A program made the position numbers and the translations under genes. This document shows positions 35,699-50,898 of a DNA stretch of 64,000 bases, piece by piece. Position 1 is the stretch's first letter. Every line of letters begins with the position of its first letter. The notes beneath the pieces are model-generated. The model made no database searches, had not been told where the DNA came from, and saw only the letters and a list, made by a program, of their open reading frames with translations. The stretch is from Novosphingobium kaempferiae (lineage in GTDB: Bacteria > Pseudomonadota > Alphaproteobacteria > Sphingomonadales > Sphingomonadaceae), in the NCBI RefSeq assembly GCF_021227995.1, contig NZ_CP089301.1, positions 3,100,001 through 3,164,000 on the forward strand, in the 5' to 3' direction.

Positions 35699-35762
35699 GG
35701 CCTCTCTCCCGATCTGCTTTCGGGAGGGAGGCTAGGTCGGCGCGCCCTTGCGGGCAAAGCGC

Positions 35763-36633: not shown

Positions 36634-36662
36634 TTGACATCGGCGAACCGTTTCGGTACATA
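36634..36662 (+). promoter_or_regulatory. Sigma-70-type promoter of the GTA cluster
   Basis: A perfect -35 TTGACA (36634-36639), a 17-base spacer and TACATA (36657-36662) as the -10. It lies about 90 bases upstream of the first GTA gene, in the most AT-rich stretch of the neighbourhood. No CtrA full site (TTAA-N7-TTAA) is visible beside it. Confidence 0.65.
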
Positions 36663-36750
36663 ACGTGAACATCGCGGAAAGACGGACGCTCACCGCGCTC
36701 CCTTCCCGCAAACCGCCCCGCCCCACTCCCGCCAATGCAGGAACACTCCG

Positions 36751-37263
36751 ATGGTCGAGCCGAAGACGGCGTCGCGTCCCGCACGCGCGCGCAAGCCCCG
36801 CACGAAGATCAGCGCCAAGGCCGCCGCGACCGAGAAGGAGGGCCTCAACCGCCACTGGCGCACCGAATTTCTGGAAGCGCTGGCGCAGACGTCCAACGTC
36901 ACCGCCGCCTGCGCCGTGGCGGGCGTCCACCCCAGCCGCCCCTACATCGTCCGCCGTGCCGAGCCCGAGTTCGCCCGCGCCTGGCGCGCCGCGCTGCTCG
37001 AAGGCTACGAGAACCTCGAAATGGAAGTGCTCCACCGCCTGCGTTTCGGCGAGGCGAAGGACGGCCCGGTCAAGTTCGACAACCCCGGCGCGCTGCGCCT
37101 CCTTGGCCTCCACCGCGAGACGGTGGCCCGCGAACGCGCGATGCGCGAGAACGAGGAGATCGGCGTCGTGCGCGCCGCGATCCACGCCAAGCTGGAACAG
37201 CTGCGCCGTCAGGTCATGGCCCGCCGTGCGCTGGAGAATGCAGAGGTCGCGGGCCGTGCGTGA
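36751..37263 (+). CDS. GTA small terminase (RcGTA g1-like)
   Basis: 170 aa. A very basic N-terminus is followed by a helix-turn-helix-like region TSNVTAACAVAGVHPSRPYIVRRAEPEFA, the signature of GTA/phage small terminase subunits that recognise DNA and feed it to the motor. The C-terminal half is helical. It lies directly upstream of the large terminase, which it overlaps by eight bases. It starts the structural cluster. Confidence 0.85.
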   Translation: MVEPKTASRPARARKPRTKISAKAAATEKEGLNRHWRTEFLEALAQTSNVTAACAVAGVHPSRPYIVRRAEPEFARAWRAALLEGYENLEMEVLHRLRFGEAKDGPVKFDNPGALRLLGLHRETVARERAMRENEEIGVVRAAIHAKLEQLRRQVMARRALENAEVAGRA

Positions 37264-38575
37264 ACCCGGCCACCTCGACTGGCTGCCCGAGGCCAGCACG
37301 GACGAGATCGAGGATTACCTCCACGAACTGCCGCGCGAACACCGCCGCGAATGGCCGTGGGACTGGCGCGTCTGGGCCCGCCCCGCGCAGCTGCCCCCCG
37401 CCGGCGACTGGCGCATCTGGCTGGTCATGGCCGGGCGCGGCTTCGGCAAGACCCGCGCCGGGGCCGAATGGGTCAGCGCGCTGGCCGAAGGCAACCCCGA
37501 TGCCCGCATCGCCCTTGTCGGCGCCAATCTGGGAGAGGCCCGTTCGGTCATGGTCGAAGGCGAATCCGGACTGCTCTCCATCGGCGCGCCGTGGCGCAGG
37601 CCGGTGTTCGAGCCTTCGCTGCGACGCCTTACATGGTCGGGCGGCGCGCAGGCCACGCTCTATTCCGCCGCCGAACCCGAAGCCCTGCGCGGTCCGCAGC
37701 ACAGCCATGCCTGGTGCGACGAGATCGCCAAGTGGGACAATGCATCGGGCCGCGCCGTGGCGGCATGGGACAACCTGATGATGGGCCTGCGCCTCGGCAC
37801 GGACCCGCGCGTGCTGGCCAGCACCACGCCGCGCGCCGTGCCGCTGCTTACCCGCCTGCTGGGCGAGGACAGGGTTGCGGTGACGAAGGGCAGCACTTTC
37901 GACAACTCCGCCAACCTGCCCGACCGCTTCGTCGAGACGATGCGCGCCACCTATGGCGGCACCCTGCTGGGCCGTCAGGAACTGGACGGAGAGATGATCG
38001 CCGACATCGAAGGCGCGCTCTGGACCCGCGCCCTGCTCGAATCCTGCCGCGAGGATGCCGCGCCAGATATGGTCCGCGTCGTCGTCGCCGTCGATCCGCC
38101 CGCCTCCGCCGGAGGTGACGCCTGCGGCATCGTCGTCGCCGGACTCGCCGCCGACGGGACCGCCCACGTCCTCGCCGACGCCTCGATAGCGAACGCCGGG
38201 CCGGAACGCTGGGCGCGCACGGTCGCCGCGACCGCCGAGGCATGGCAGGCCGATCGCGTCGTCGCCGAAGCCAATCAGGGCGGCGCGATGGTCGGCGCGG
38301 TCCTGCGCGCGGCGCAACTCTCGCTGCCGCTCAGGCTGGTCCACGCCAGTCGCGGCAAGACCGCCCGCGCCGAACCCGTCGCCGCGCTCTACGAAGCAGG
38401 CCGCGTGCGCCACACCGGGACATTCCCGGCGCTGGAGGACGAACTGTGCGGGCTTGTTGCGGGAGGCTCCTACCAGGGGCCGGGCCGCTCGCCGGATCGC
38501 GCCGATGCGCTGGTCTGGGCGCTGACCGAACTGATGCTCGGCAAGGCGGCGGAGCCGAGAGTGCGGATTACGTAA
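37256..38575 (+). CDS. GTA large terminase, packaging ATPase/nuclease (RcGTA g2-like)
   Basis: 439 aa. Walker A is AGRGFGKT at 59-66, Walker B/catalytic carboxylates are HAWCDEIAKW (Asp155/Glu156), and the C-terminal RNase H-like nuclease begins at VVAVDPPASAGG (Asp280). Terminase_6-type, as in GTAs. The GTG at 37256 has GAGG nine bases upstream; an ATG at 37238 is in frame but its GGAG is too close. The frame is open back to 36665, but only as a shadow of the small terminase. Confidence 0.93.
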   Translation: MREPGHLDWLPEASTDEIEDYLHELPREHRREWPWDWRVWARPAQLPPAGDWRIWLVMAGRGFGKTRAGAEWVSALAEGNPDARIALVGANLGEARSVMVEGESGLLSIGAPWRRPVFEPSLRRLTWSGGAQATLYSAAEPEALRGPQHSHAWCDEIAKWDNASGRAVAAWDNLMMGLRLGTDPRVLASTTPRAVPLLTRLLGEDRVAVTKGSTFDNSANLPDRFVETMRATYGGTLLGRQELDGEMIADIEGALWTRALLESCREDAAPDMVRVVVAVDPPASAGGDACGIVVAGLAADGTAHVLADASIANAGPERWARTVAATAEAWQADRVVAEANQGGAMVGAVLRAAQLSLPLRLVHASRGKTARAEPVAALYEAGRVRHTGTFPALEDELCGLVAGGSYQGPGRSPDRADALVWALTELMLGKAAEPRVRIT

Positions 38576-38586
38576 CAGGAAATGAT

Positions 38587-38743
38587 TTCACGCGGAGGCG
38601 CGGAGACGCGGAGATACTGCGCCGCAGGCCTCTTCCATCGATCGACGTAGCGGCTGTCGCAGCCTTTCGTTTCTCAACGCGGCTGCGCCGCAAACGCGCG
38701 CCCTCCCTCTTTCTTCTCCGCGTCTCCGCGCCTCCGCGTGAGA
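38587..38743. repeat. Inverted repeat (family E) between GTA large terminase and portal
   Basis: CACGCGGAGGCGCGGAGACG (38590) is inverted as CTCCGCGTCTCCGCGCCTCC (38717), so the element could fold into a long stem with a ~90-base centre. It fills the 206-base gap in an otherwise tightly packed operon. Confidence 0.85.
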
Positions 38744-38781
38744 CCCGTCCGAACACCCCGATCTGAAAGGAACCCTTTCCC

Positions 38782-39933
38782 GTGTCCTTCATCGAATCGC
38801 TCGCCGCCGCCTTCAAGGGCGCTAGCAGCCGCGCGCCGCTGGCTCGCGGGACTGCATCGCCATGGTTCTTTGCGGACCCCACTGGCGGCGGGCGTACCCC
38901 CTTCGAATACAACACCGCCGTTCGCCGCGCGTACCTCGAAAACCCCGTCGCCCAGCGTGCGGTGCGCCTTGTCGCCGAGGGCATCGGCGGTGCGCCGCTG
39001 AAATCGGTCGATCCGAAGCTGGCCGCGCTCGTCGCCGATACCAGCGCCGGGCAGTCGCTGCTGGAAACGCTGGCATCGCACCTGCTGCTGCACGGCAATG
39101 CCTATGTGCAGGTCATGAAGGATGCGCGCGGGGCTCCGGTGGAGCTGTTCGCGCTGCGGCCCGAGCGGGTCAGCGTGGTGGCGGGCGAGGACGGCTGGCC
39201 TGCCGCCTATGCCTACGAGGTCGCGGGGCGGCGGCTGTCGATCCCGGTGCTGGACGAGGACGCCTCGCCCAACGTGATCCACATCCGCCACTTCCACCCC
39301 TCGGACGACCACTACGGCGCCGGGTGCCTGACCGCTGCCGACGAGGCGATCGCCACGCACAACGCCGCTTCGGCGTGGAACCGGCAACTGCTGGAGAACG
39401 CCGCGCGGCCTTCCGGCGCGCTGGTCTACGAAGGGGCTGACGGTTCGACGCTGACCGGCGACCAGTTCGACCGGCTCAAGGCCGAACTGACGAGCGCCTA
39501 TGCCGGTTCGGGTAATGCCGGGCGGCCAATGCTGCTGGAGGGCGGCCTGACCTGGCAGGCGATGGCGATGACCCCCGCCGACATGGACTTCGCGACGCTG
39601 AAAGCCGCCGCTGCGCGCGATATCGGGCTGGCCTTCGGGGTGCCGCCGATGCTGCTCGGCCTGCCGGGCGACGCGACCTACAACAATTACCGCGAGGCCA
39701 ACCGCGCGCTGTGGCGGCTCACCCTGTTGCCGCTGGCCGCCAAGATCTTCGCCGCACTGGGCGAGGGGCTGGCGCCGTGGTTCCCCGAAGCCGTGCTCGC
39801 CATCGACCTCGACCGCGTGCCCGCGCTGGCCGAGGACCGCGAGCGTCTCTGGGCGCAAGTCAGCGCCGCCGACTTCCTGGAACCCGCCGAAAAGCGCGCG
39901 CTTCTGGGATTTGATATGGAGAACAAATCATGA
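38782..39933 (+). CDS. GTA portal protein, HK97 family (RcGTA g3-like)
   Basis: 383 aa. The dodecameric portal through which DNA enters the capsid. Signature regions: NPVAQRAVRLVAEGIGG, LLLHGNAYVQVMKD, and the C-terminal VPPMLLGLPGDATYNNYREANRALWR. The start is GTG at 38782 with AAGGA well placed. It overlaps the following gene by four bases. Confidence 0.94.
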   Translation: MSFIESLAAAFKGASSRAPLARGTASPWFFADPTGGGRTPFEYNTAVRRAYLENPVAQRAVRLVAEGIGGAPLKSVDPKLAALVADTSAGQSLLETLASHLLLHGNAYVQVMKDARGAPVELFALRPERVSVVAGEDGWPAAYAYEVAGRRLSIPVLDEDASPNVIHIRHFHPSDDHYGAGCLTAADEAIATHNAASAWNRQLLENAARPSGALVYEGADGSTLTGDQFDRLKAELTSAYAGSGNAGRPMLLEGGLTWQAMAMTPADMDFATLKAAAARDIGLAFGVPPMLLGLPGDATYNNYREANRALWRLTLLPLAAKIFAALGEGLAPWFPEAVLAIDLDRVPALAEDRERLWAQVSAADFLEPAEKRALLGFDMENKS

Positions 39934-40238
39934 ACTCCAATGACATGCTGGCCGGCCTGCTTGCGCAGGCGGCGTCGGAGGGCGGCGACCTCGTCACCCT
40001 GCGCGCCGTGGTCGAGGAAGCCGCCGAACTGGGCGCGCGCCGGATGCTCGCCCGCATCGGCCTCGACGACGCCACCGCGCCGCAGGACGTGGGCGAACTG
40101 CGCGAACTGCTGCAGGCCTGGCGCGACGCCAAGGCCAGCGCGCGGCGCACGGTGATGGGCTGGGTCATGCGCGGGATGCTGGCGCTGCTGCTGCTCGGCC
40201 TGACGGTGCGCTGCGGCGCGACGGAGTTGCTGCGATGA
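39930..40238 (+). CDS. Small membrane-anchored GTA protein (DUF6127-like, g3.5 position)
   Basis: 102 aa. The N-terminal two thirds are helical and acidic (MLAGLLAQAASEGGDLVTLRAVVEEAAELGARR). A single membrane segment (GMLALLLLGLTVRCG) lies near the C-terminus. It occupies the place of RcGTA g3.5 between portal and protease. Start and stop overlap both neighbours (ATGA junctions). Role in head formation is inferred from position. Confidence 0.8.
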   Translation: MNSNDMLAGLLAQAASEGGDLVTLRAVVEEAAELGARRMLARIGLDDATAPQDVGELRELLQAWRDAKASARRTVMGWVMRGMLALLLLGLTVRCGATELLR

Positions 40239-40630
40239 GCCTGCGTTTCGCCGGTTACGCCGCTCTGTTCGGCAAGCCCGACGCCGGGCGCGACGTGATC
40301 CGCGCCGGGGCCTTCGCCCGCTCCCTCGCCGAACGGCGCGATCCGCTCCCGCTGTTCTGGCAGCACCGCGCGGACCTGCGCATCGGCTGGGTCGAGACCG
40401 CCGCCGAGGACGCGCGCGGCCTGCGTGTGGTGGCGACCATCGACAACCCCGCAGGCGCGGCGGGCCTCGCCCTGAAGCGCGGGACGGTCACCGGCCTCTC
40501 CTTCGGCTACCGCGCCCGCGCCAGCCATCGGACCGAGGCGGGCCGCGAACTGCTCGATCTCGACCTGTTCGAGGTCAGCCTCGTCACCCACCCGATGCAG
40601 CACGACGCGCGAGTGCATCTGGTCGCCTGA
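40235..40630 (+). CDS. GTA prohead protease, HK97 family (RcGTA g4-like)
   Basis: 131 aa. Caudovirus prohead serine protease: FAGYAALFGKPDAGRDVIRAGAF, catalytic His in FWQHRADLRIG, and Ser in TGLSFGYRA, followed by LFEVSLVTHPM. It matures the capsid by clipping the N-terminal delta domain of the capsid precursor. Shorter than many phage enzymes, as usual for GTAs. Confidence 0.93.
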   Translation: MSLRFAGYAALFGKPDAGRDVIRAGAFARSLAERRDPLPLFWQHRADLRIGWVETAAEDARGLRVVATIDNPAGAAGLALKRGTVTGLSFGYRARASHRTEAGRELLDLDLFEVSLVTHPMQHDARVHLVA

Positions 40631-40675
40631 CCCCTCCTTTCCCCCCCTTCCCCACCAACGAAAGGTGCCTACCCC

Positions 40676-41815
40676 ATGGAATCCGCAACTCCCGTCGAGG
40701 CGATCGACGCCTCGTTCGATCTGGTCGCGCGTCAGGACGCGACCGATGCCGCCGTCACCGCGCTGCGCGGCGACGTCGACGACGTGAAGGCCCGCCTCGA
40801 CCGCGTGTCGCGCGCCGCTTCCCGCCCGGTCATCGACGGCGCGGGCGCTGCGCCTAGCATCGAGGTGAAGAGCTTCGTGCAGGGCTACCTGCGCGCCGGT
40901 CGCGAGACGGAGCTGAAGTCGCTCTCCGGCGCGGTGGCGGCGGACGGCGGCTATGCCGTCCCGCGAGAGATCGACGCGCTGATCTCGGCCCGGCTGAAGG
41001 CCATCAGCCCGATCCGCGCGATCGCGCAGGTCGTGCAGACCGGCTCGGCGGGCTACCGCAAGCTCATCACCACCGGCGGCACCGCCTCGGGGTGGGTGAG
41101 CGAGACCGGCGCCCGCGCCGAGACCGCGACGCCCAGCTTCGCCGAGATCGCGCCCCCGGCGGGCGAACTCTATGCCAACCCGGCGGCGAGCCAGGCCATG
41201 CTCGACGATGCTGCCTTCGACGTGCAGTCGTGGCTGGCGGACGAGATCGCGATGGAATTCGCCCGCGCGGAAGGCGCCGCCTTCGTCACCGGCACCGGCA
41301 CCAACCAGCCGCGCGGCTTCCTGACCGGCACGACCAGCACGGCGGCTGACGGCGCCCGCGCGTTCGGCACGCTGCAGCACATCGTCTCGGCCAACGCCAG
41401 CGGCTTCGACGCCTCGCCGGAACTGAAGCTGATCGACCTCGTCCATGCGCTCAAGGCCGGGCACCGCCAGGGCGCGAGCTGGGTGATGAATTCGAAGACG
41501 CTGGCGCAGGTGCGCAAGCTCAAGGCGGCGGACGGCTCGTTCCTGTGGCAGCCGGGCCTGCTCGAAGGCCAGCCCAACCGCCTGCTCGGCTACCCGGTGG
41601 TCGAGGCCGAGGACATGCCGGACATCGCGGCGGGCGCGCTGCCGATCGCTTTCGGCAACTTCCGCGCGGGCTACCTCATCGCCGAGCGCACCGCGACCTC
41701 GATCCTGCGCGATCCGTTCACCAACAAGCCCTTCGTCCACTTCTACGCGACCAAGCGCATCGGCGGGCAGGTGCTCGATTCCGACGCGATCAAGCTGCTC
41801 AAGATCTCGACCTGA
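40676..41815 (+). CDS. GTA major capsid protein, HK97 fold (RcGTA g5-like)
   Basis: 379 aa. The N-terminal ~100 residues form the helical, charged delta/scaffold domain (ALRGDVDDVKARLDRVSRAA), followed by AADGGYAVPREIDALI at the probable cleavage region near residue 95, then the HK97 core (FVTGTGTNQPRGFL, WVMNSKTLAQVRKLKAADGSFLW, GYPVVEAEDMPDIAAGALPIAFGNF). A good AAAGGTG ribosome site lies upstream. Confidence 0.95.
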   Translation: MESATPVEAIDASFDLVARQDATDAAVTALRGDVDDVKARLDRVSRAASRPVIDGAGAAPSIEVKSFVQGYLRAGRETELKSLSGAVAADGGYAVPREIDALISARLKAISPIRAIAQVVQTGSAGYRKLITTGGTASGWVSETGARAETATPSFAEIAPPAGELYANPAASQAMLDDAAFDVQSWLADEIAMEFARAEGAAFVTGTGTNQPRGFLTGTTSTAADGARAFGTLQHIVSANASGFDASPELKLIDLVHALKAGHRQGASWVMNSKTLAQVRKLKAADGSFLWQPGLLEGQPNRLLGYPVVEAEDMPDIAAGALPIAFGNFRAGYLIAERTATSILRDPFTNKPFVHFYATKRIGGQVLDSDAIKLLKIST

Positions 41816-41842
41816 CCCCGATCTCGACCTGAAACGGTCGAG

Positions 41843-41880
41843 GCCCGCGCCGTCTTCCCCGCCCTTTCGGCGGCGCGGGC
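41843..41880 (+). terminator. Stem-loop after the capsid gene, possible attenuator
   Basis: GCCCGCGCCG at 41843-41852 pairs perfectly with CGGCGCGGGC at 41871-41880. It is followed by ACCTTCTTCTTCC, a weak pyrimidine tract rather than a T run. Its position just after the most abundant structural protein suggests partial termination or protection of the upstream mRNA. Confidence 0.5.
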
Positions 41881-41913
41881 ACCTTCTTCTTCCCCCTCAC
41901 ATCGGAGTCACCC

Positions 41914-42462
41914 ATGAACCGGGTCATCCTATCGCCGGCCGCGCTGCCGTCCCCGGCGCTGGCCGAACTCAAGCAGTGGCTCGGCATCGCCATCGGCGGC
42001 GACGATGCGGCGCTGACCGCACTGCTCGGCGCCTCGCTCGACACCTGCGAGGCGTTCACCGGCACCCTGCCCATCGAGGCCGAGTGCGAGGAGATGCTGC
42101 CGCCCTGCGCGGGCTGGCACCCCCTCTCGACCCGTCCGGTGCTCGCGATCTCCGCCGTCGAGGCCGTCGCTGCGGACGGCACCCGCACCCCGCTCGCGCC
42201 CGGCAGCTGGGAAGCGGATCTCGGCGCCGACGGCACCGGCCGCGTCCGCCTGCCGCTCAACGACGGCCGCGCCCGCGTCGCAGTGCGTTTCACCGCCGGT
42301 TACGCGCCGGAATGGGACGCCCTGCCCGAATCGCTGCGCCACGGCGTCGTCCGCCTCGCCGCGCACCAACACCGCGAGCGCGAGACTTCGGGCGCGGCCC
42401 CGCTGCCCCCCGCCTCGGTCGCGGCGCTGTGGCGGCCCTGGCGCCGGATGCGCCTCGCGTGA
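41914..42462 (+). CDS. GTA head-tail connector (RcGTA g6-like)
   Basis: 182 aa. The phage gp6-like connector pattern: ALAELKQWLGI near the start, a DDAALTALLGASLDTCEAFTG helix, and a C-terminal helix LRHGVVRLAAHQHRER. It forms part of the adaptor ring between portal and tail. The stop overlaps the next start as GTGA. Confidence 0.88.
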   Translation: MNRVILSPAALPSPALAELKQWLGIAIGGDDAALTALLGASLDTCEAFTGTLPIEAECEEMLPPCAGWHPLSTRPVLAISAVEAVAADGTRTPLAPGSWEADLGADGTGRVRLPLNDGRARVAVRFTAGYAPEWDALPESLRHGVVRLAAHQHRERETSGAAPLPPASVAALWRPWRRMRLA

Positions 42463-42623
42463 TCGAGGCCACGACCGACTTCGACGCCCTCGCCCGGCGG
42501 CTCGCCTCGAAGGCTGTAGCCCTCGCCACCGCGCGGGCCACCAGCCGCCACCTCGCCGCCCGCAACGCTGACAGCCGCTGGCGCCACGCCGGGCTCGTCT
42601 GGCCCCTCTTCGCGAAAGGATAA
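42459..42623 (+). CDS. Very short coupled GTA gene at the g7 position
   Basis: 54 aa from GTG at 42459, which overlaps the g6 stop by four bases (GTGA). It ends three bases before the ATG of the tail terminator gene, a layout that strongly suggests a real, translated gene. The product is Ala/Arg-rich, with ARRLASKAVALATARATSRHLAARN as a probable helix. RcGTA has a head-tail adaptor of about twice this length here, so this is either a reduced adaptor or an unrelated small protein. Homology is not claimed. Confidence 0.62.
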   Translation: MIEATTDFDALARRLASKAVALATARATSRHLAARNADSRWRHAGLVWPLFAKG

Positions 42624-42626
42624 GCC

Positions 42627-43016
42627 ATGGAAATCGCCCTTCGCGCCGCCCTGATCGCCTGGCTCGCCGCCGACGCGACGCTCGCCGCGGGCCTCAACGC
42701 CGTGGTCGAGGAAGCGCCCTCGCGCACCAGCCTGCCCTGGCTCGCCATCGCATCAAGCGCCAGCACCGACTGGAGCTGCAAGACCGCCACCGGGCGCGAG
42801 GTGCGCGTGGCGCTGGAACTCCACTGCCGGGGCGACGCGCCCGACACCGCAGCGAACCTCGTATCCGCCATCGAGGCACGGGTGGTCAGCCTGCCACGCG
42901 AACAGGCGGGCTTCGACATCGCGACCACCCAGTTCCTGCGCGCCCGCGCCGAACAGCGAGCCGACAACCGCCGCGCGATCCTGCTCGAATACCGCTTCCG
43001 GCTGCTGGCCGATTGA
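42627..43016 (+). CDS. GTA tail terminator, DUF3168 (RcGTA g8-like)
   Basis: 129 aa. DUF3168 pattern: LRAALIAWLAADATLAAGL followed by PWLAIASSAS and a C-terminal YRFRLLAD. It caps the tail tube at the head junction. It starts three bases after the short upstream gene. Confidence 0.87.
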   Translation: MEIALRAALIAWLAADATLAAGLNAVVEEAPSRTSLPWLAIASSASTDWSCKTATGREVRVALELHCRGDAPDTAANLVSAIEARVVSLPREQAGFDIATTQFLRARAEQRADNRRAILLEYRFRLLAD

Positions 43017-43017
43017 C

Positions 43018-43142
43018 CCGTCATCCCGGCGCATGCCGGGACCGTGGGCTGTCTTTAGACGCACCATCAAGCACGCGGCGCCCCGACGCCAGATTCCTCC
43101 TCAAGAACTGCCCACGGTCCCGGCATGCGCCGGGATGACGAC
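43018..43142. repeat. Inverted repeat (family D) between tail terminator and major tail genes
   Basis: CGTCATCCCGGCGCATGCCG at 43020 continues to GGGACCGTGGGC, and the whole arm is inverted at the right end (GCCCACGGTCCC... to 43140). The arms are over 30 bases with only minor differences and surround a ~60-base centre. It is an insertion-like palindrome inside the GTA operon; the sequence downstream still provides a good ribosome site (AAGGAGA) for the next gene. Confidence 0.9.
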
Positions 43143-43172
43143 GCTATTCCCCATACCCCAAGGAGACCCACC

Positions 43173-43580
43173 ATGCCCGCCCAGAAAGGCAGCGCCTTCC
43201 TCCTCAAGATCTCCAACGGCGGCGCCCCCGCCGCCTACCAGACCGTCGCGGGCCTGCGCACGACGCAGATGTCCGTCACCGGCGACGCGGTGGTCGTCAC
43301 GTCAAAGGACAGCGGCGGCTGGCGCGAACTGCTGTCGGGCGCGGGCGTGCGCTCCGTCTCGGTCAGCGCGGCGGGGATCTTCCTCGGCAGCGCGGCGGAG
43401 GCACAGGTCCGCGCCAACGCCATGGCCGGCACGCTGGACGACTACGAACTGAGCTTCGAGGGCGGCGAACGCCTGCGCGGCAGGTTCCTCGTCCAGCGCC
43501 TCGACTACGCGGGCGATTTCAACGGCGAGCGCAACTACACGCTGCAGTTGGAAAGCTCGGGTCAGGTGCTCCCGGCATGA
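43173..43580 (+). CDS. GTA major tail protein (RcGTA g9-like)
   Basis: 135 aa. The tail-tube subunit pattern AQKGSAFLLKISNG, then the beta-rich VTSKDSGGWRELLSGAGVRSVSVSAAG, ending NYTLQLESSG. The ATG at 43173 has a strong AAGGAGA site. The stop overlaps the next ATG (ATGA). Confidence 0.92.
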   Translation: MPAQKGSAFLLKISNGGAPAAYQTVAGLRTTQMSVTGDAVVVTSKDSGGWRELLSGAGVRSVSVSAAGIFLGSAAEAQVRANAMAGTLDDYELSFEGGERLRGRFLVQRLDYAGDFNGERNYTLQLESSGQVLPA

Positions 43581-43897
43581 CGGCCAGCGCCCTGCCCAAC
43601 GCCCTTCGCGGCGAGTGCGCGCTCGCCATCGCCGGGACTGCATATGTCATGCGCCCCAGCTTCACGGCGCTGGTGGCCGCCGAGGAGGAACTCGGCCCGC
43701 TGTTCGCCCTCGTCGAGCGTGCCGGAGCGGGCGAACTGCGCCTTGCCGAGATGACCGCGCTGTTCTGGCACTGCCTGCCCGATGGCGACCGCCCGGAACG
43801 CGAGACGGTGGGCGCAGCGGTGGTCGCGCAGGGCCTTGCCGCCTGCGCCGCGCCGCTGCGGGTGCTGCTCGGGCAGATCCTCAAGGGCAGCGCATGA
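43577..43897 (+). CDS. GTA gp10-like tail assembly protein
   Basis: 106 aa. The GTA_gp10 family pattern: NALRGECALAIAGTAYVMRPSFTALVAAEEELGPLFALVERA. It corresponds to the first tail-assembly chaperone gene between tail tube and tape measure. It overlaps both neighbours by four bases. Confidence 0.88.
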   Translation: MTASALPNALRGECALAIAGTAYVMRPSFTALVAAEEELGPLFALVERAGAGELRLAEMTALFWHCLPDGDRPERETVGAAVVAQGLAACAAPLRVLLGQILKGSA

Positions 43898-44085
43898 CGT
43901 TCGCAGCGGCGGCCCTTGCTCTGTGCGGCGTTTCCGCCCGCGTTCTGGGCTGGCGACCGCCCGAATTCTGGGCCGCCACCCCCGCCGAACTCGCCGCCGC
44001 GCTCGGCCTGCTGACCGCCGACACCGCATCCGGCTTCGACCGGGCTGCCCTGCACAAGCTGATGGAAGACGATCATGGACGATGA
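43894..44085 (+). CDS. Short phage tail assembly chaperone (RcGTA g10.1-like)
   Basis: 63 aa, from an ATG overlapping the gp10 stop to a TGA 11 bases inside the tape-measure gene. The segment LGWRPPEFWAATPAELAAALG is the recognisable core of the small DUF2376/TIGR02216 chaperone family. The overlaps on both sides support translation. Confidence 0.82.
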   Translation: MTFAAAALALCGVSARVLGWRPPEFWAATPAELAAALGLLTADTASGFDRAALHKLMEDDHGR

Positions 44086-44632
44086 CATCGACAGCCTCCT
44101 CGTCGAAGTGCGCGCCGGCACCGACGGCTTCGCCCGCGACATCGCGCAGATGCGCGGCGCGGTGGACGGCAACCTCGTTTCCGGCTTCACCCGCGCCGGG
44201 GACGCACTGGAGCGCGGCCTTTCCGGCGCGATCCGCAAGGGCAGCCTCGGCTTCGACGACCTCAAGCGCACCGCGAACTCCGCGCTCGACGCCATCGCCG
44301 GGCAGGCCGCACAGACGCTCGCCTCTGCGCTGGTCGGCGGCGGTACGGGCGGTGCCCTCGATCTCTCGGGCCTGCTGACCGGCGCGCTCGGTCTTCCGGG
44401 GCGCGCGACCGGCGGCAATGTCTCGCCGGGGCGTGGCTACGTCGTGGGCGAGCGCGGGCCGGAACTGTTCGTGCCGACCTCCGCCGGACGCATCGAGACC
44501 GGCAGCGGACGCGCGCGCGACGTGCGCGTCGCGATCAACCTCTCCGCACCGCGCGGCGCCAGCGCGCCGCAGTCGCTCCAGCGCTCGTCCCGGCAGGTCG
44601 CGAGCGCCGTGCGCCGCGCCCTCTCGAACTGA
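44075..44632 (+). CDS. Short GTA tail tape-measure protein (RcGTA g11-like)
   Basis: 185 aa. Pattern: LVEVRAGTDGFARDIAQMRGAVDGNL, a central Gly/Ala/Leu-rich hydrophobic stretch (QTLASALVGGGTGG), and the phage motif ATGGNVSPGRGYVVGERGPELFVP. Tape-measure length sets tail length, so this implies a very short tail, as in RcGTA. Confidence 0.9.
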   Translation: MDDDIDSLLVEVRAGTDGFARDIAQMRGAVDGNLVSGFTRAGDALERGLSGAIRKGSLGFDDLKRTANSALDAIAGQAAQTLASALVGGGTGGALDLSGLLTGALGLPGRATGGNVSPGRGYVVGERGPELFVPTSAGRIETGSGRARDVRVAINLSAPRGASAPQSLQRSSRQVASAVRRALSN

Positions 44633-44643
44633 GGAGACACCCG

Positions 44644-46992
44644 ATGGCATTCTGGCTCGCCAGCAAGCGCGAAGGTCAGGCGAGCGACTGGATCATGCGT
44701 TTCGATCCGCGCTTCTGGACTGTCAACTTCCCCCGCCCGATGGTGGCGACGGTGGTCTCGACCGGCCCGGCATCGCTGCGCGTCGACGCCTCGTTCCTGC
44801 GCCGCGCGGACCTCGGCGGGCTGATCTGGGACAGCGTGGACACGCTCGACCATCCGCTGCTCGCCTACCGCACCGACCGCGACTATGTGCATACGTCGCT
44901 GCGATTCCGCTGGCGCTCGTCGGGCGTGATCCCGCTCGACGCGGGCAACGGGCCGACGCTGACGGTGGAGGGGCGGGACCGGCACGGCGCCGCGCGGACG
45001 TGGTACGTCCGGCTCTGGAACTATGCGCAGGGGACCGGCGAGGACGCGGTCGTCGCGCTCGATTTCTCGCAGCTCGACGGCGGCTTCACCCTCCCCGCCG
45101 AGGCTGACCGCGTCTGGCCCCATGCGATCGAGCGCATGTTCATCTCCTTCGCTCCGCCCGGCTACGACGGCGCGAGCACCGATGCCCTGCCCGCCGAGGC
45201 CGAAGGCTGGATCGAGATTTCCGACATCGCCACCGATGGCGCACGCGCCATGCTGGAGATCGGCGACGTGGCGATGCCCGCCAACGGGCTCGCCATCGCC
45301 ACCGGCTACGACGATCAGGGCGTGCAGACCCCGGCGCGCCTGATCCGCAGCGCGCGCCAGCTCGGCTATCGCGGTTCGATGATCCACTACGTCGGCATGA
45401 GCCACTATTTCCGGCTCGCCCATGCGCATGGTGCGTTCCTGACCGGCGGGACCGGCGATCCGCTCAACAACCCGACGCGCACATGGCACCGCGCCTTCTT
45501 CGCCGAGTGCATCGCCGCCGGGTTCAGCCCGGTCGCCTCGCTGTCCTACGAACTGCTCGACCAGCATTGCCCGGAAGGTTGGAAGCAGCGCGACCATCGC
45601 GGCGATCCGGCGCTGACCGGCTGGGATCCGCCCTCCACGCTGCTCTCGCCCGCCAATGCCGATGCGATGGCGTGGCTCCAAAGCATTGGCGCCGAATTCG
45701 CCGCGCTCATGGTCGAGGCAGGCGCGCCCGTTCGCTTCCAGGTGGGTGAGCCATGGTGGTGGACCTTCGGCGACGGCCGCATCTGCCTCTACGACGATGC
45801 CGCGAAGGCCGCATTCGGCGGCAATCCGCCCGCCATCGCCGACATGCGCGCGCCGCTGTCTGCCCCGCAGAAGGCACTCCTCGATCAAGCCGGTGCGATG
45901 CTCGCGCAATCGACCGCCGATCTCGTCACCGCCGTGCGCGCCGCCGTCGCGCCCGCTCCGGTCGAGGCTCTGGCGCTCGTCTTCACCCCCACCCTGCTCG
46001 CGCCCGACATGCCCGAACTTAAGCGCGCCAACCTCCCGCTTGGCTGGGCCAAGCCCGCGTTCGACCGGCTGCAGGTGGAGGACTACGACTGGCTCACCGC
46101 CGGAGCGGACGGCCTGCGTCGCAAGGCTTACGCCGAAGTCGACGAGCGGCTGGGCTATCCCCCGCACGAACAGGACTACCTCGCTGGCTTCGTACTCACG
46201 TCCGCCCAGCGCGACCAGTGGCGGCGGATCGACGCGGGGATCGACGAAGCCCTGTCCCGCGCCCCGCACGAAGTCGTCGTCTGGGCGCTGCCGCAAATCG
46301 CGCGCGATGGATACACGCGCCTGCCCCCTCCCCCTTCCGACCAGTCAGGAGCCGAAGCCATGCAGGCCTTCGACGACGTGCTCTACCCCCTCGCCCTCGG
46401 CCGCGACGCGACCGTGGTGCCCGAATTCTCCACCAGCGTCTCGGTCACGGCCTCCGGCTTCGAGCGGCGCAATTCCCTGTGGTCGAACGCGCGGCTGCGC
46501 TTCGACGTGGGCCCCGGCGTGAGGTCCGAGGCGGAACTGGGCGCACTCATCGCCTTCTTCCGCGCCCGCCGGGGCCCGGCGCGCGGCTTTCGCCTGCGCG
46601 ATCCGAGCGACTTCAGCTCCAGCGGCATGGTCGGCACGCCCGGCCCGCTCGACCAGCGGATCGGCACCGGAAACGGCCTCGCCACCGACTTCCCGCTGGT
46701 GAAGCGCTACGGCGAGGACGACGACGCGCAGCTTCGCCGCATCACCCGACCTGACTTCGCGACCCTCCTGCTCTCGGTCGATGGGGTGGTGCAGGTCGGC
46801 AACTGGCGACTGCTCGACGGCGGAATCGTTTCGTTCGAGGAAGCCCCGTCCGCCGGAGCCGCCGTACACGCCGGATTCCTCTTCGACGTCCCCGTCCGCT
46901 TTGCCGAGGACAGCCTCGAAGTCTCCGGCTCCGCCTTCGCCGCCGGGGAAGCGCCGAGCGTGCCCGTCGTCGAGATCCGGGAGGCGTCATGA
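44644..46992 (+). CDS. GTA distal tail protein fused to a large N-terminal domain (g12-like, DUF2460)
   Basis: 782 aa. Residues 573-782 are the DUF2460/gp12 distal-tail domain (MQAFDDVLYPLALGRDATVVPEFSTSV, FFRARRGPARGFRLRDPSDFS), about the size of the stand-alone RcGTA protein. Residues 1-572 have no equivalent in RcGTA g12: a beta-rich start (to ~230) and then a region resembling a glycosidase TIM barrel (GMSHYFRLAHAHGAF near 250, SYELLDQHCPEGW near 305, FQVGEPWWWTFGDG near 364). An AGGAG at 46347-46351 lies eight bases before codon 573 (ATG), so an additional short product is possible. Four-base overlap with g13. Confidence 0.88.
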   Translation: MAFWLASKREGQASDWIMRFDPRFWTVNFPRPMVATVVSTGPASLRVDASFLRRADLGGLIWDSVDTLDHPLLAYRTDRDYVHTSLRFRWRSSGVIPLDAGNGPTLTVEGRDRHGAARTWYVRLWNYAQGTGEDAVVALDFSQLDGGFTLPAEADRVWPHAIERMFISFAPPGYDGASTDALPAEAEGWIEISDIATDGARAMLEIGDVAMPANGLAIATGYDDQGVQTPARLIRSARQLGYRGSMIHYVGMSHYFRLAHAHGAFLTGGTGDPLNNPTRTWHRAFFAECIAAGFSPVASLSYELLDQHCPEGWKQRDHRGDPALTGWDPPSTLLSPANADAMAWLQSIGAEFAALMVEAGAPVRFQVGEPWWWTFGDGRICLYDDAAKAAFGGNPPAIADMRAPLSAPQKALLDQAGAMLAQSTADLVTAVRAAVAPAPVEALALVFTPTLLAPDMPELKRANLPLGWAKPAFDRLQVEDYDWLTAGADGLRRKAYAEVDERLGYPPHEQDYLAGFVLTSAQRDQWRRIDAGIDEALSRAPHEVVVWALPQIARDGYTRLPPPPSDQSGAEAMQAFDDVLYPLALGRDATVVPEFSTSVSVTASGFERRNSLWSNARLRFDVGPGVRSEAELGALIAFFRARRGPARGFRLRDPSDFSSSGMVGTPGPLDQRIGTGNGLATDFPLVKRYGEDDDAQLRRITRPDFATLLLSVDGVVQVGNWRLLDGGIVSFEEAPSAGAAVHAGFLFDVPVRFAEDSLEVSGSAFAAGEAPSVPVVEIREAS
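46360..46992 (+). other. Possible internal translation start giving stand-alone gp12
   Basis: AGGAG at 46347-46351 with 8-base spacing precedes the in-frame ATG at 46360, exactly where the DUF2460 domain begins. If used, it would produce a 210-aa protein equal in size to ordinary GTA gp12. This is a prediction from sequence placement only. Confidence 0.4.
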
Positions 46993-47813
46993 CCCGCCCC
47001 TGGTTCGCCGCAGACCTCGAGACCGCCGCGACCTTCTGGCGCATCCTACGCCGTGACGGGGTTACGCTGGGCTTCACCTCGCATGACCGGGACTTGTGGT
47101 TCGACGGCGTGCTCCACCGCGCCTCGCCCGGCATGGTGCCGAGTTCGATCCGCAAGTGCGCCGACTTCGAGCCCGACAGCGCCGAAGTGCGCGGCTCGCT
47201 CAGCCACGAGGCGATCGACAGCGCAGACCTTGCCGCAGGCCGCTTCGACGGCGCGCAGGTGCGCATCGGCCTCGTCGACTGGGACAGCCTGGAGCGCGAT
47301 GTCCTCTACGCGGGCACCATCGGCGCGATCACCGAGGAGGACGGCGCGTTCTCCGCCGACCTCATATCCCGCAAGGCCGAACTCCACCGCGACCCGACCC
47401 CGCGCACCAGCCCGACCTGCCGCGCAGTCTTCTGCGGCCCCGGCTGCAATCTCAACCCGTGGAAGTTCACCCGCGAATTCCGCCTCGCCGCCGTCGATGC
47501 AGGCGCCAATACGGTACGCTTCGCGGAGACACTAGATGCGGCGTTATACGCGGGCGGCACCCTGCGCTGGATGGACGGCCCGCAGGCCGGACTGACGATA
47601 GGCGCGATCGGTGGCGATACGACCGGAGGTCTCCTACTCGACACGCCCATCGACACCGGGATCGCTCCCGGCACTCCCGCGCTGCTACGCGAAGGCTGCG
47701 CCCACACGCTCGGCACTTGCGCGCACCGCTTCGGCAATGCCGTCAACTTCCGGGGCGAACCACACCTGCCCGGCAACGACATGCTCACCCGCTACCCGGA
47801 CCCGATACAGTGA
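46989..47813 (+). CDS. GTA hub protein, DUF2163 (RcGTA g13-like)
   Basis: 274 aa. DUF2163 pattern: FWRILRRDGVTLGFTSHDRDLWFDGVLH, EVRGSLSHEAIDSADLAAGRFDGAQV, and a C-terminal cysteine cluster. Cys144, Cys149, Cys153, Cys237 and Cys244 are spaced as in tail-hub proteins related to lambda gpL, which bind an Fe-S cluster. Both ends overlap neighbours (ATGA, GTGA). Confidence 0.9.
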   Translation: MTRPWFAADLETAATFWRILRRDGVTLGFTSHDRDLWFDGVLHRASPGMVPSSIRKCADFEPDSAEVRGSLSHEAIDSADLAAGRFDGAQVRIGLVDWDSLERDVLYAGTIGAITEEDGAFSADLISRKAELHRDPTPRTSPTCRAVFCGPGCNLNPWKFTREFRLAAVDAGANTVRFAETLDAALYAGGTLRWMDGPQAGLTIGAIGGDTTGGLLLDTPIDTGIAPGTPALLREGCAHTLGTCAHRFGNAVNFRGEPHLPGNDMLTRYPDPIQ

Positions 47814-48223
47814 CGGGGGCCGACCTTGCCACGGCGGCACTCACCCTCGTCGGCACGCCGTTCCGGCTGCATGGCCGCGATCCCGCTTCGGGGCTCGACT
47901 GCATCGGCGTCCTCGAAGCGGCGCTGGCGCGGGCCGGACGACCGGCGCGCCTGCCCAACGGCTATCCCCTGCGCGCCCGTCGCCTGCCCGACCTGCAACG
48001 CACGACGGCGATGCTCGGGCTGAACGAAGCGGATGGCGCCCTGATCCCCGGCGACGTCGTGATGCTGCGCGTCTCACCGTGCCAGCTTCACCTCGCCATC
48101 GCCATTTCTCCCATGACCGCGGTCCACGCCCACGCCGGGCTGCGCAAGGTCGCGCTCGCCCCGCTGCCGCCGGAGTGGCTGCGCGTCGCGCACTGGCGGC
48201 TCTCCCCCCATTCGAGGAACTGA
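47810..48223 (+). CDS. GTA NlpC/P60-family peptidase (RcGTA g14-like)
   Basis: 137 aa. Catalytic Cys31 in SGLDCIGVLE and His94 in CQLHLAIAIS; the third polar residue is less clear (the HAHAG segment follows). Probably cuts cell-wall peptide during DNA delivery. The GTG at 47810 overlaps the g13 stop (GTGA); the long upstream frame is a shadow of g13. Confidence 0.9.
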   Translation: MTGADLATAALTLVGTPFRLHGRDPASGLDCIGVLEAALARAGRPARLPNGYPLRARRLPDLQRTTAMLGLNEADGALIPGDVVMLRVSPCQLHLAIAISPMTAVHAHAGLRKVALAPLPPEWLRVAHWRLSPHSRN

Positions 48224-48224
48224 C

Positions 48225-50420
48225 ATGGCGACGCTCGTTTTCGGAAGTCTCGGCTCGATGCTGGGCGGCCCCCTCGGCGGAGCTATCGGCTCGCTGGTCG
48301 GCCGCCAGTTCGACGCGGCGCTGTTTGGCTCGGCCGGACGGCAGGGGCCGCGCCTCAAGGAACTGGCCGTCACCACGTCCAGCTACGGCCAGACGCTGCC
48401 GCGCCACTTCGGCCGCATGCGCACGGCAGGCTCGGTGATCTGGGCCACCGACCTCGTGGAGCGCAGCGAGGCGCAAGGCAGCGGCAAGGGCGGCCCTTCG
48501 CTCACCACCTACGCCTATTCCGTAAGCTTCGCCGTGGCGCTGGCCAGCCGTCCGATCCGCGCCATCGGCCGCATCTGGGCCGACGGCAAGCTGCTGCGCG
48601 GCGCGGCGGGTGATCTCAAGGCCGCAGGCACCCTGCGTGTCCACACCGGAGCCGGGGACCAACAGCCCGATCCGCTGATCGTCGCAGCGGAAGGCCCCGG
48701 GCAATGCCCTGCCTATCGCGGGCTGGCGTATGTCGTGTTCGAGGATCTCGACCTCTCCGGCTTCTACAACCGCATCCCCTCGCTCACGTTCGAGATAATT
48801 GCGGACGACGGTTTCAGCCTGCGGGACATGATCGGCGAAGTGATCGAGGACGTGGACGCCGACCTCCCGTTCTCCGGCCTGTCCGGCTACACCAGCGAAG
48901 GCAGCCCCGCCGCCGACCTCCAGGTGTTCGACCAGATCACCCCGCTGGAAATCGATGCCGCAGGCGAACACCTCGTCATCGCCGCCGAGCGACGACAGGA
49001 AGCGGCAATCTGCCTGCCCGAGCCCGCCATCGCCAGCGGAGATGGCGACTTCGGCGCACTAACCGGCTTCACCCGCCACCGCGCCCCTCCACCCGAGAGC
49101 CCGCCCTCCATCCTGCGCTACTACGATGTCGATCGCGACCATCAACCGAGCCTCCAGCGCGCAACGGGCCGCAGCATTCCGGGCGAGCCCGCCGGCATCG
49201 ACCTGCCCGCCGCACTCGATGCCGGCACCGCCCGCGCGCTGATCGAACGCACCGCGCGCCGCATCGACTGGAACCGCGACCGCATTTCCTGGCGCACCTG
49301 CGAACTCGACCCGCGCATCGGGCCGGGCACACTCGTCACCCTCCCCGGGATCGACGGACACTGGCGCGTGCGCGAGTGGGAATGGCGCGACAGCGGCGTG
49401 GAACTGCATCTCGAACGCGCCCTCCCCCCCACGGTCGCAACGACGCCGGACCTGGCATCCGATCCCGGACGTCCGAACCCACCCCTCGACACGGAGACGG
49501 GCCAGACCCGGCTGGTGGCATTCGAGCTGCCCTTCGACGCCGCAACCGGCTCGCCCGATGCCCCGCGCCCGTTTGCCGCCGTCTCGGCGACAAGCGCCGG
49601 ATGGAGCGGGGCCGCCCTGTATGCGGATCATGGCGATGGTGCGCTCCACCCCCTCGGCCCCAGCGGCCGGATGCGGGCGACCATCGGGACGGTAGCGTCG
49701 CCACTGCCTCCCGCGAACCCGCTGCTGTTCGACCGGACCTCGTGCCCTGTCGTGATGCTCGTCGATCCCGCTATGCAGCTTGCAGCAACCGACACCGGCG
49801 GCATTTCGCGCGGCGCCAACCTCGCTCTGATCGGCGAGGAGATAGTCCAGTTCCTCGGTGCCGTCCCTATCGGCGCCGGTCGCTGGCGGCTCGAAGGACT
49901 GCTCCGTGGCCGGGCCGGAACCGAAACGGCCATCGCGGCTCACAGGGAAAACGAGGATTTCGTGCTCCTCGACAACAGCCTTGTGCGCGTCGATGCATCG
50001 ACGCTCGGATCGTCGCCGGGTCGACAGGTGGTGGCGCTGGGGCGTGGCGACGATGCCCCGGCCACAGCCTCGCTTCATCTCGACGGCATCGGCCAGCGCC
50101 CCCTGGCACCCGTGCATCCACGCATGATCGTGACGAAAGACGACGGCCTGCTGCTGTCCTGGACGCGCCGGGCACGCGGGGGCTGGGCTTGGCAGGACGG
50201 CGTGGATGTGCCCCTCGTCGAACAGGCCGAGCGCTATCTCGTCACGCTGGGACCGCTCGACGCGCCGTTGGCGATGTGGACGAGCACATCGCCGACGCTC
50301 GACATCGATGCCGCGACGGTCGTCCGCTTCGCCACGTCCGCGCCGCACGCCGAGATCCATGTCCGCCAGCAGGGCACGCACGCGCTCTCGCTTCCCCTTC
50401 TGCTCGGCACCCTCAGTTGA
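48225..50420 (+). CDS. GTA tail-tip protein (g15-like, shortened)
   Basis: 731 aa. The start MATLVFGSLGSMLGGPLGGAIGSLVGRQFDAALFG and the segment ELAVTTSSYGQTLPRHFGRMRTAGSVIWATDLVE are typical of GTA/phage tail-tip (gp15, megatron-like) proteins, followed by FYNRIPSLTFEII and a beta-rich C-terminal half. RcGTA gp15 is about 1,300 residues and includes the GTA TIM-barrel domain; that segment is missing here. It begins one base after the g14 stop region and probably forms the spike. Confidence 0.88.
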   Translation: MATLVFGSLGSMLGGPLGGAIGSLVGRQFDAALFGSAGRQGPRLKELAVTTSSYGQTLPRHFGRMRTAGSVIWATDLVERSEAQGSGKGGPSLTTYAYSVSFAVALASRPIRAIGRIWADGKLLRGAAGDLKAAGTLRVHTGAGDQQPDPLIVAAEGPGQCPAYRGLAYVVFEDLDLSGFYNRIPSLTFEIIADDGFSLRDMIGEVIEDVDADLPFSGLSGYTSEGSPAADLQVFDQITPLEIDAAGEHLVIAAERRQEAAICLPEPAIASGDGDFGALTGFTRHRAPPPESPPSILRYYDVDRDHQPSLQRATGRSIPGEPAGIDLPAALDAGTARALIERTARRIDWNRDRISWRTCELDPRIGPGTLVTLPGIDGHWRVREWEWRDSGVELHLERALPPTVATTPDLASDPGRPNPPLDTETGQTRLVAFELPFDAATGSPDAPRPFAAVSATSAGWSGAALYADHGDGALHPLGPSGRMRATIGTVASPLPPANPLLFDRTSCPVVMLVDPAMQLAATDTGGISRGANLALIGEEIVQFLGAVPIGAGRWRLEGLLRGRAGTETAIAAHRENEDFVLLDNSLVRVDASTLGSSPGRQVVALGRGDDAPATASLHLDGIGQRPLAPVHPRMIVTKDDGLLLSWTRRARGGWAWQDGVDVPLVEQAERYLVTLGPLDAPLAMWTSTSPTLDIDAATVVRFATSAPHAEIHVRQQGTHALSLPLLLGTLS

Positions 50421-50439
50421 CCACCAAGGAGCCTTTCCC

Positions 50440-50898
50440 ATGTCCGACCTGCCGAACTTTGCCGACGTCACTCCGCGTTTCGCGCTGCCGCTGCTCTACG
50501 CGGCGCAGGCGCAGAAGGAGGTCTTCGTCAACGAGGCGCTCATGCTCACCGACGCGCTGGCACACTCCTGCGTGGAGGGTGAACGCGCAACACCTCCGGA
50601 AACTTCCGCAGAAGGCGACGCCTGGCTGGTCGCGCCCGGAGCGACTGGCGACTGGGCCGATGCGGAAGGCTCCATAGCGGTCTGCCGCGGCGCGGGCTGG
50701 GTGTACATCCCGCCCCGCGACGGCATGCGCGTCTTCGATCGCTCGCGCGGTGCCGAGATGCTGTTTTTCGGTTTCTGGAGAAAAGCTTCGCTTCCCGTGG
50801 AACCAGTTGGCGGGACGAATGTTGATGGGGTTGCTCGGACCGCGATCAACGATCTGGTCTCGGCTCTCCAGGCCTTGGGTATTCTGCCCGCGGCTTGA
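50440..50898 (+). CDS. DUF2793 protein, last gene of the GTA cluster
   Basis: 152 aa. DUF2793 signature: TPRFALPLLYAAQAQKEVFVNEALMLTDAL, then GDAWLVAPGATGDWA and GWVYIPPRDGMRVFDRSRGAEMLF. Often follows GTA tail genes in alphaproteobacteria and may decorate the tail fibre. The ATG at 50440 follows AAGGAGC; the frame opens upstream only inside the tail-tip gene. Confidence 0.88.
   Translation: MSDLPNFADVTPRFALPLLYAAQAQKEVFVNEALMLTDALAHSCVEGERATPPETSAEGDAWLVAPGATGDWADAEGSIAVCRGAGWVYIPPRDGMRVFDRSRGAEMLFFGFWRKASLPVEPVGGTNVDGVARTAINDLVSALQALGILPAA

Follow-up and report, generated by a model that had tools for sequence, protein, structure and literature searches.

Gene content and order of the cluster

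The DNA analysed here (the window, 64,000 nucleotides) comprises positions 3100001-3164000 of the one-contig 5.70-Mb genome of Novosphingobium kaempferiae, and holds a cluster of genes related to those of the gene transfer agent (GTA) of Rhodobacter capsulatus (RcGTA). Eighteen co-directional open reading frames, all on the + strand and all intact, were found at window positions 36751-50898 in the RcGTA gene order, as a first-pass annotation of the sequence had described. Its mention of overlapping junctions holds for nine of the 17, which overlap by 4-11 bases, while the other eight are gapped by 1-206 bases.

Read from its 5' end, the cluster contains g1 for the terminase small subunit (36751-37263, assigned through phrog_4044), g2 for the terminase large subunit (37256-38575), g3 for the portal (38782-39933), a DUF6127 gene in the g3.5 position (39930-40238), g4 for the S78 prohead protease (40235-40630), g5 for the HK97-type major capsid protein (40676-41815) and g6 for the head-tail connector (41914-42462). 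These are followed by a 54-aa gene in the g7 position (42459-42623), g8 for a gp17-type tail terminator or completion protein (42627-43016), g9 for the tail tube (43173-43580, with a Shine-Dalgarno-like AGGAG for the start at 43173), g10 of the GTA-gp10 family (43577-43897) and g10.1 for a tail assembly chaperone (TAC), which is rcc01693-like but below the cut-off of that model (43894-44085). The remaining genes are g11 for the tape measure protein (44075-44632), g12 for a protein of 782 aa (44644-46992), g13 for the baseplate hub (46989-47813), g14 for an NlpC/P60-like tail peptidase (47810-48223), g15 for a shortened megatron of 731 aa (48225-50420) and a DUF2793 gene (50440-50898).

Besides DUF6127, family matches were obtained for TerL, portal, S78 protease, HK97 capsid, gp17-type, tail tube, GTA-gp10, TAC, distal tail protein (Dit), hub, Rcc01698_C and DUF2793, with the Dit over the TIGR02217 cut-off and the hub over that of TIGR02218. 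The g6 and g14 products were just below or below the Pfam cut-offs, although g6 had a PHROG match (phrog_442), and no Pfam match was found for g1, the 54-aa gene or the tape measure. The 54-aa gene could be assigned to none of the families compared. The best matches among solved structures were RcGTA chains for the capsid (Rcc01687, E 4e-85), the Dit part of gp12 (Rcc01695, E 7e-40) and gp15 (E 3e-50). The tape measure scored 21.4 bits against NF058675 (RcGTA_tape), far under the 220-bit cut-off, and gp15 scored 370.7 bits against the megatron model NF048004, under its 800-bit cut-off. The tape measure has the 185 aa given in the first-pass annotation, but its shortness is not unusual, the RcGTA model being 220 positions long.

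No integrase, repressor or replication families were detected among the 20 proteins scanned (the 18 cluster genes and one gene on each side), in agreement with the annotation, and no att-like direct repeats of at least 18 bases bracketing the cluster were found within 35700-51400.

Domain layout of the tail proteins

The gene order and family assignments are those of a complete RcGTA-type cluster, as had been proposed, but the domain layout of gp12 and gp15 differs from that of RcGTA. The gp12 protein is composed of an RcGTA-type distal tail protein and an N-terminal module of ~570 aa that resembles the sheath of coliphage N4, with NCTSP_N at residues 17-207, TIM-barrel_NCTSP at 212-557 and DUF2460 at 577-779. 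In phmmer searches residues 272-559 matched N4 Gp64 (E 3e-41), residues 14-90 the start of the N4 sheath protein (E 4e-15) and residues 575-779 Rcc01695, while profile searches gave E 5e-66 for N4 Gp64, 5e-26 for the N4 sheath and 1e-64 for Rcc01695. For the comparison between gp12 and gp65, two stretches were counted in each search, and the best gp65 stretch corresponds to chain residues 53-129 (phmmer) or 47-129 (profile). Two glutamates of gp12, E369 (in GEPWWW) and E479 (in an (L/V/I)EDYDW motif), were invariant in all 77 aligned sequences, which include five phage-type sequences with NCTSP fused to the hub, and have counterparts in N4 Gp64; they are regarded here as a putative glycosidase pair.

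The N4 sheath (gp64 and gp65) is described as formed by two proteins, one of 1382 and one of 417 aa (PDB 9lc0 and 9yf4; PMC12633501). The segments at 14-90 and 272-559 of gp12 correspond to the start of gp65 and to gp64, respectively, but here one arm is fused to a siphovirus-type Dit and most of gp65 is absent. Thus NCTSP_N and the NCTSP TIM barrel of an N4-type sheath are present, whereas a two-protein sheath with gp65-type receptor-binding domains is not.

Residues 1-673 of gp15 align to 26 TIM-bearing megatrons (probability 100), and gp15 has no counterpart to 536 of 568 megatron columns in the stretch between its residues 212 and 232. This gap falls where the RcGTA megatron has its peripheral domain (residues 230-744; PMC7296036), a protruding TIM barrel whose function is given as unknown (PMC13420450), indicating that gp15 lacks the TIM-barrel peripheral domain.

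The distribution of both barrels was examined in genome sets, where the genus and the family were taken to be Novosphingobium and Sphingomonadaceae. Among the 119 family genomes the NCTSP barrel was found in 80 and DUF2460 in 84, and GTA_TIM was above its cut-off in none, with one match below it. In a sample of the class (n = 289), NCTSP was present in four genomes (three of Sphingomonadaceae, and G275 from another family) and GTA_TIM in 29, none having both. The GTA_TIM barrel looks to have been replaced by the NCTSP barrel in the Sphingomonadaceae cluster. The passage of one TIM barrel from gp15 to gp12, as a case of homology, was considered and rejected, since hhalign of the NCTSP barrel (30 sequences) against the 26 megatrons gave nothing (best P 0.12); given that the NCTSP profile is shallow (Neff 2.5) and that similarity was not detectable, only a replacement of the barrel is claimed.

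In the particle, every copy of the distal tail protein would bear an arm of two domains that resembles the N4 sheath and includes a glycosidase-like TIM barrel, and gp15, in the baseplate, would have dropped its peripheral TIM-barrel domain. The RcGTA particle contains one hexamer of the distal tail protein. The sugar-facing barrel would now be presented by this six-fold ring, and not by the three-fold baseplate.

The NCTSP module in phages and viral contigs

A second layout of the module was found in G275 and in eight IMG/VR contigs (L292-L299, 7.4-41.4 kb; L292 and L293 look like one virus), where a single frame holds NCTSP and the front part of the hub (8/8 contigs). A separate Dit is located directly before this frame in G275 and in six of the eight contigs, and the two contigs without it (L295 and L297) start inside the NCTSP-hub gene. 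The gp15 frames of these loci are short, as in N. kaempferiae (754-804 aa, that of L292 being cut), and GTA_TIM was not found in the two that were scanned (L102 and L299). Two phage isolates, the siphophages Loki and Lebethron, encode an NCTSP protein of ~900 aa after the protein annotated as distal tail. The NCTSP_N and TIM module adjoins the Dit in L294, L299, G275, Loki and Lebethron, as it does in N. kaempferiae, but it follows the Dit (in the IMG/VR contigs and G275 as a fusion with the hub) and does not precede it.

No full phage with the NCTSP-Dit order found in the sphingomonad cluster was seen, either among 50,697 phage records or among the best 80 of 597 confirmed IMG/VR matches to gp12 (L212-L291), which lie on contigs of 4 to at most 17.4 kb, cluster-sized or smaller. 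Only one place in the phage records covers 80% of gp12, on an unannotated faecal contig of 5.4 kb. This contig (L433, MT840053.1, a 'Bacteriophage sp.' record from human faeces) has a gene for a relative of gp12, ~50% identical to the N. kaempferiae protein across 89% of the length, and is probably a fragment of a sphingomonad GTA, perhaps packaged DNA or a contaminant. Sphingomonad GTA clusters were also seen to be catalogued in IMG/VR as viral contigs. In genome G001 (L105, L477) a remnant of the GTA cluster has kept the promoter, and a further GTA-like tail module lies at a different place; in this module the Dit is separate, the hub contains an insert and a gp15-like frame of 1169 aa lacks GTA_TIM.

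The cluster promoter and the DUF6456 gene

The cluster promoter was located by its comparative pattern at 36634-36662 (+ strand), with the -35 box TTGACA at 36634-36639 and the -10 box TACATA at 36657-36662; a generic sigma-70 scan did not report it. The start given to the element in the first-pass annotation, 36634, coincides exactly with the base at which the -35 box begins. The promoter alignment also revealed an upstream box, TAACC-N5-GGTTA (36612-36629, + strand), immediately before the -35 box, and a conserved downstream stretch beginning with GAACATCGCG (36667-36681, + strand), which is partly decayed in N. kaempferiae. The genus consensus upstream of g1 is TTGACA-N-CGTNACGCT-N5-GGTACATA, and the -35/-10 pattern was present in 33 of 37 genus upstream regions. 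In N. kaempferiae the place of the CGTNACGCT site, between the -35 and -10 boxes (36641-36649, + strand), retains three of the eight defined bases, that is, the site is decayed.

GTA activators are described, in the literature covered, for Rhodobacter and Caulobacter. Homologues of GafA are annotated as DUF6456 (PMC9638019), and GafZ of Caulobacter, a homologue of the GafA C-terminus, is reported to bind a palindrome between the -35 and -10 boxes of the GTA promoter and to act as an antiterminator like lambda Q (PMC11150451). The DUF6456 family (PF20057) was present in 102 of the 119 family genomes and in 70 of 99 genus genomes, and in a control set of 14 genomes it matched Caulobacter only. 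A GafA-type activator gene was also sought in the N. kaempferiae genome, and no DUF6456 match was found at E<=1e-3. The host control suggested in the first-pass annotation was therefore half right, since the DUF6456 gene so common in the family was not found here and its presumed promoter site is decayed.

Presence of the site was compared with presence of DUF6456 in promoters that had been located without use of the spacer, from the -35 and -10 bases only; the eight defined bases of the spacer were scored afterwards. At least seven of the eight bases were found in 52 of 53 promoters from DUF6456-positive genomes (24/24 in the genus and 28/29 in the family), but in only one of 14 from DUF6456-negative genomes (1/13 and 0/1, respectively; Fisher p 8e-12, kinship ignored). 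A total of 74 upstream regions were examined, of which seven were dropped for having no promoter located near g1 (L078, L080, L081, L096, L101 and L126, DUF6456-positive, and L121, DUF6456-negative; five family ones were removed by hand), and family loci with no g2 match were left unscored (L071, L100 and L104, DUF6456-positive, and L099, DUF6456-negative). On the tree of cluster proteins DUF6456 changes at least eight times and the site at least seven times, and seven phylogenetically independent pairs comprised six concordant, no discordant and one tied pair (p 0.031).

In the DUF6456-negative genomes the -35 box, the -10 box and the upstream AACC-TGG box are largely kept, while the core bases of the spacer are near-random and the edges of the site and the downstream stretch are partly decayed. 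The TAACC-N5-GGTTA box is largely kept with and without DUF6456, and three of its bases were invariant in all 37 aligned promoters.

Gene neighbourhoods were compared around the activator gene. In three genus genomes (G111, G409 and G500) DUF6456 is located behind secDF with an adjoining helix-turn-helix (HTH)-like gene, and in N. kaempferiae secDF is present but other genes follow instead of the DUF6456 block, which shows its absence at that place, not the manner of loss. In six family genomes, G107, G113, G029, G112, G094 and G053 (L422-L426 and L430), the DUF6456 gene was observed directly ahead of the GTA cluster, with ~9.5-16 kb between it and the NCTSP domain downstream, and in the genus member G111 it is far from the cluster. 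DUF6456 was found in 74 of 80 NCTSP-positive and 28 of 39 NCTSP-negative family genomes (p 0.004, kinship ignored), and some of the NCTSP-negative genomes that have DUF6456 keep cluster remnants with the promoter.

From this promoter comparison and from the matching position of the GafZ site in Caulobacter, the DUF6456 protein is proposed to act at CGTNACGCT. In most relatives the cluster would be read from a promoter with a consensus -35 box and CGTNACGCT in the spacer, at the place used by GafZ and lambda Q, and the DUF6456 protein, of the GafZ or GafA C-terminal type, most likely loads onto RNA polymerase at this site and lets it read through the cluster. In the lineage of N. kaempferiae, and in several others, DUF6456 appears to be gone and the spacer site decayed, with the -35, -10 and upstream boxes remaining and the genes still under purifying selection. 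Without DUF6456, some other factor is probably needed for expression, and the TAACC-N5-GGTTA box may be where it binds. The N. kaempferiae agent is apparently not under the textbook activator, and its start signal seems to have persisted beyond the loss of the activator that formerly acted on it.

The possibility that the spacer site marks a wider regulon was also considered, but most single matches to TTGACNNCGTNACGC (the site with TTGAC before it) in the whole genomes mean little, given their number in a control (see below). Twenty chosen sites away from NCTSP-bearing clusters included 13 at cluster remnants or pieces and seven that were not (in G058, G049 twice, G098 twice, G040 and G020), and no common downstream gene was seen among the examined non-remnant sites. 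In G098, L478 and L479 are two further occurrences of the GTA promoter motif outside the cluster.

Inheritance and selection

The cluster is flanked by a gene for a VTT-like membrane protein upstream (below the Pfam cut-off) and by one for an OmpA-like protein downstream. The best 21 gp12 matches among named genomes all belong to Novosphingobium. Among 38 genus loci, drawn from 67 gp12-positive genomes of the 99 searched and mostly on long contigs (the truncated L407 was left out), the VTT neighbour was found in 36, OmpA in 37, both in 35 and at least one in all 38. The corresponding numbers for 39 family loci were 18, 31, 11 and 38.

Seventeen genes were checked in each genus locus, and stops, split frames or deletions were found in five of the 38 loci; L403 runs off the end of its contig, and 13 other loci that are partial only at the divergent g1 or g10 ends were not counted as damaged. 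Frameshifts in homologues had been named in the first-pass annotation as a sign of a recent prophage remnant; these broken copies, however, occur at the same chromosomal site, and look like losses of an inherited element instead. In addition, 12 loci without the NCTSP domain are cluster remnants in the same place and with the same promoter, each with at least one of the two neighbours; as they were picked through the promoter pattern, they prove the existence of such remnants but not their frequency.

Median pairwise ratios of nonsynonymous to synonymous divergence (omega) were 0.19-0.43 for 12 cluster genes, against 0.26 for the neighbouring OmpA gene (at most 21 sequences). For the N. kaempferiae branch since its split from G432, the 12 cluster genes gave dN 0.046, dS 0.269 and omega 0.17. 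The values, calculated by the Nei-Gojobori method with a dS of 0.58 to the nearest sequence, are rough. The intact frames, the branch omega, the neighbours common to the genus and family and the lack of bracketing repeats agree with the proposal of a maintained element and not a decaying prophage. Judged by these sequence comparisons, the cluster would be an RcGTA-like gene transfer agent in the wide sense, vertically inherited at one chromosomal site in its family and maintained by selection, for which particle production is predicted.

Other features were observed in the window and in the genome. Intergenic stretches that look like palindromic repeats were seen by eye at 36450-36560 (before g1), 38576-38781 (between g2 and g3) and 43017-43125 (between g8 and g9), the first of which, located after the VTT gene and ahead of the promoter, is an almost perfect hairpin. 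The genome also has another HK97 capsid gene (G000:C1:1273497-1274321; L002 and L106), in a phage-like region that also holds a frame of ~994 aa resembling a tail protein, and this region is probably a separate prophage.

Discussion

The best explanation of these data as a whole, which we consider probable, is an inherited and selected RcGTA-like agent with a rebuilt tail tip, in which the control by DUF6456 and CGTNACGCT has been lost. A more detailed account, which can be put forward only tentatively and with slightly less than even chances, is that antitermination by a Q-like DUF6456 protein at CGTNACGCT was ancestral and was dropped independently in several lineages, that the particle genes and the core promoter were kept under selection with the GTA run from the second, upstream box, and that an N4-sheath-type module was taken in, which shifted the sugar-facing barrel from the three-fold baseplate onto the six-fold distal ring.

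Several results weigh against this explanation. The megatron and tape measure scores are under the NCBIfam equivalog cut-offs, so the cluster is a relative and not an equivalog of RcGTA, and the lack of profile similarity between the NCTSP and GTA_TIM barrels means that their equal function is a guess from position and mutual exclusivity. The association of site and activator has exceptions, since G440 lacks DUF6456 but keeps seven of the eight bases and G029 has DUF6456 with only six, while the downstream element follows DUF6456 weakly (median p 0.125, not significant). Whole-genome searches of the 119 genomes gave 94 matches to TTGACNNCGTNACGC against 63 to a reversed-pattern control, a modest excess, so that the site alone is not specific and the claim rests on the promoter comparison. 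The persistence of DUF6456 in 28 of the 39 NCTSP-negative family genomes suggests that it may have another job. Finally, omega was slightly higher without DUF6456 (0.254, n = 14, against 0.199, n = 25; p 0.12) and cluster breaks were found in 3/12 DUF6456-negative and 2/25 DUF6456-positive loci (p 0.30). Neither difference was significant; a link between activator loss and gene breakage was accordingly rejected. From the omega comparison the genes seem to be needed even where DUF6456 is missing, but slow decay following the loss of the activator keeps some probability.

The main rival explanation is that the cluster is a silenced GTA in slow decay, switched off by the loss of DUF6456, its intact genes reflecting how recent the loss was. 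The missing DUF6456 gene and the decayed spacer site of N. kaempferiae would be expected, its closest relative G432 has lost g3-g8 and most of g2, the DUF6456-negative relatives G499 and G480 have a deletion and a stop, respectively, and several family genomes hold only remnants at the same site. However, the branch omega of N. kaempferiae falls within the range of the DUF6456-positive lineages, the -35, -10 and upstream boxes are kept, and its four nearest relatives on the tree also lack DUF6456, suggesting that the loss is older than its own branch. We therefore regard slow decay as rather unlikely, at about one chance in a few.

It is also unlikely, and a little more so, that the spacer site belongs to another regulator lost together with DUF6456, such as the HTH protein adjoining it in Novosphingobium: an HTH-like gene does adjoin DUF6456 in the three genus loci compared, and the DUF6456-HTH block is missing beside secDF in N. 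kaempferiae, but the position of the site is the one reported for GafZ, which is homologous to the GafA C-terminus (PMC11150451). An ordinary prophage remnant that happens to keep structural genes is very improbable, even though IMG/VR lists such clusters as viral contigs and an earlier study, as cited in PMC6821227, called a Sphingomonadales element an ancient prophage, because the chromosomal neighbours are common across the genus and family, the genes are under purifying selection, bracketing repeats and integrase, repressor or replication families were absent from the region and proteins scanned, and gp12 of the NCTSP type occurs in 80 of 119 family genomes; among the phage records a single faecal contig covers 80% of gp12.

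The preferred explanation, an inherited agent with a rebuilt tail tip, can be compared with known systems. RcGTA shares the g1-g15 gene order, HK97 capsid, Dit, hub, NlpC-type gene, megatron ends and lack of phage early genes, and differs in that in N. kaempferiae the Dit bears the N4-sheath-like module, the megatron lacks the peripheral domain, no DUF6456 gene was found and a 54-aa gene takes the place of g7. RcGTA-like clusters of the same kind are known in Sphingomonadales, with 132 reported in 207 genomes, or 65% of 169 OTUs (operational taxonomic units) after correction (Kogay 2019; PMC6821227), and with strong codon bias and g7 replacement (PMC9765227); the passages covered from both papers do not mention the g12/g15 layout or the promoter site. 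The GafY/GafZ system of Caulobacter likewise has a palindromic activator site between the -35 and -10 boxes of a GTA promoter, as far as described in PMC11150451, but the site sequence is different, the -35 box is consensus here, and N. kaempferiae has lost both activator and site. The type of cluster is thus already known, while the tail layout of gp12 and gp15 and the features of promoter control look new; no literature on either was found, although few subscription papers were covered, which makes this weak evidence of novelty.

The predicted pair of activator and site, with its natural losses as built-in controls, makes control of the widespread sphingomonad GTA directly testable, and the swapped TIM barrels are a natural experiment on the role of the as yet unexplained domains that protrude from GTA baseplates. 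Clusters that are intact although the activator is missing are relevant to the question why bacteria maintain GTAs, and the N. kaempferiae cluster shows how such particles get rebuilt and re-controlled over evolution.

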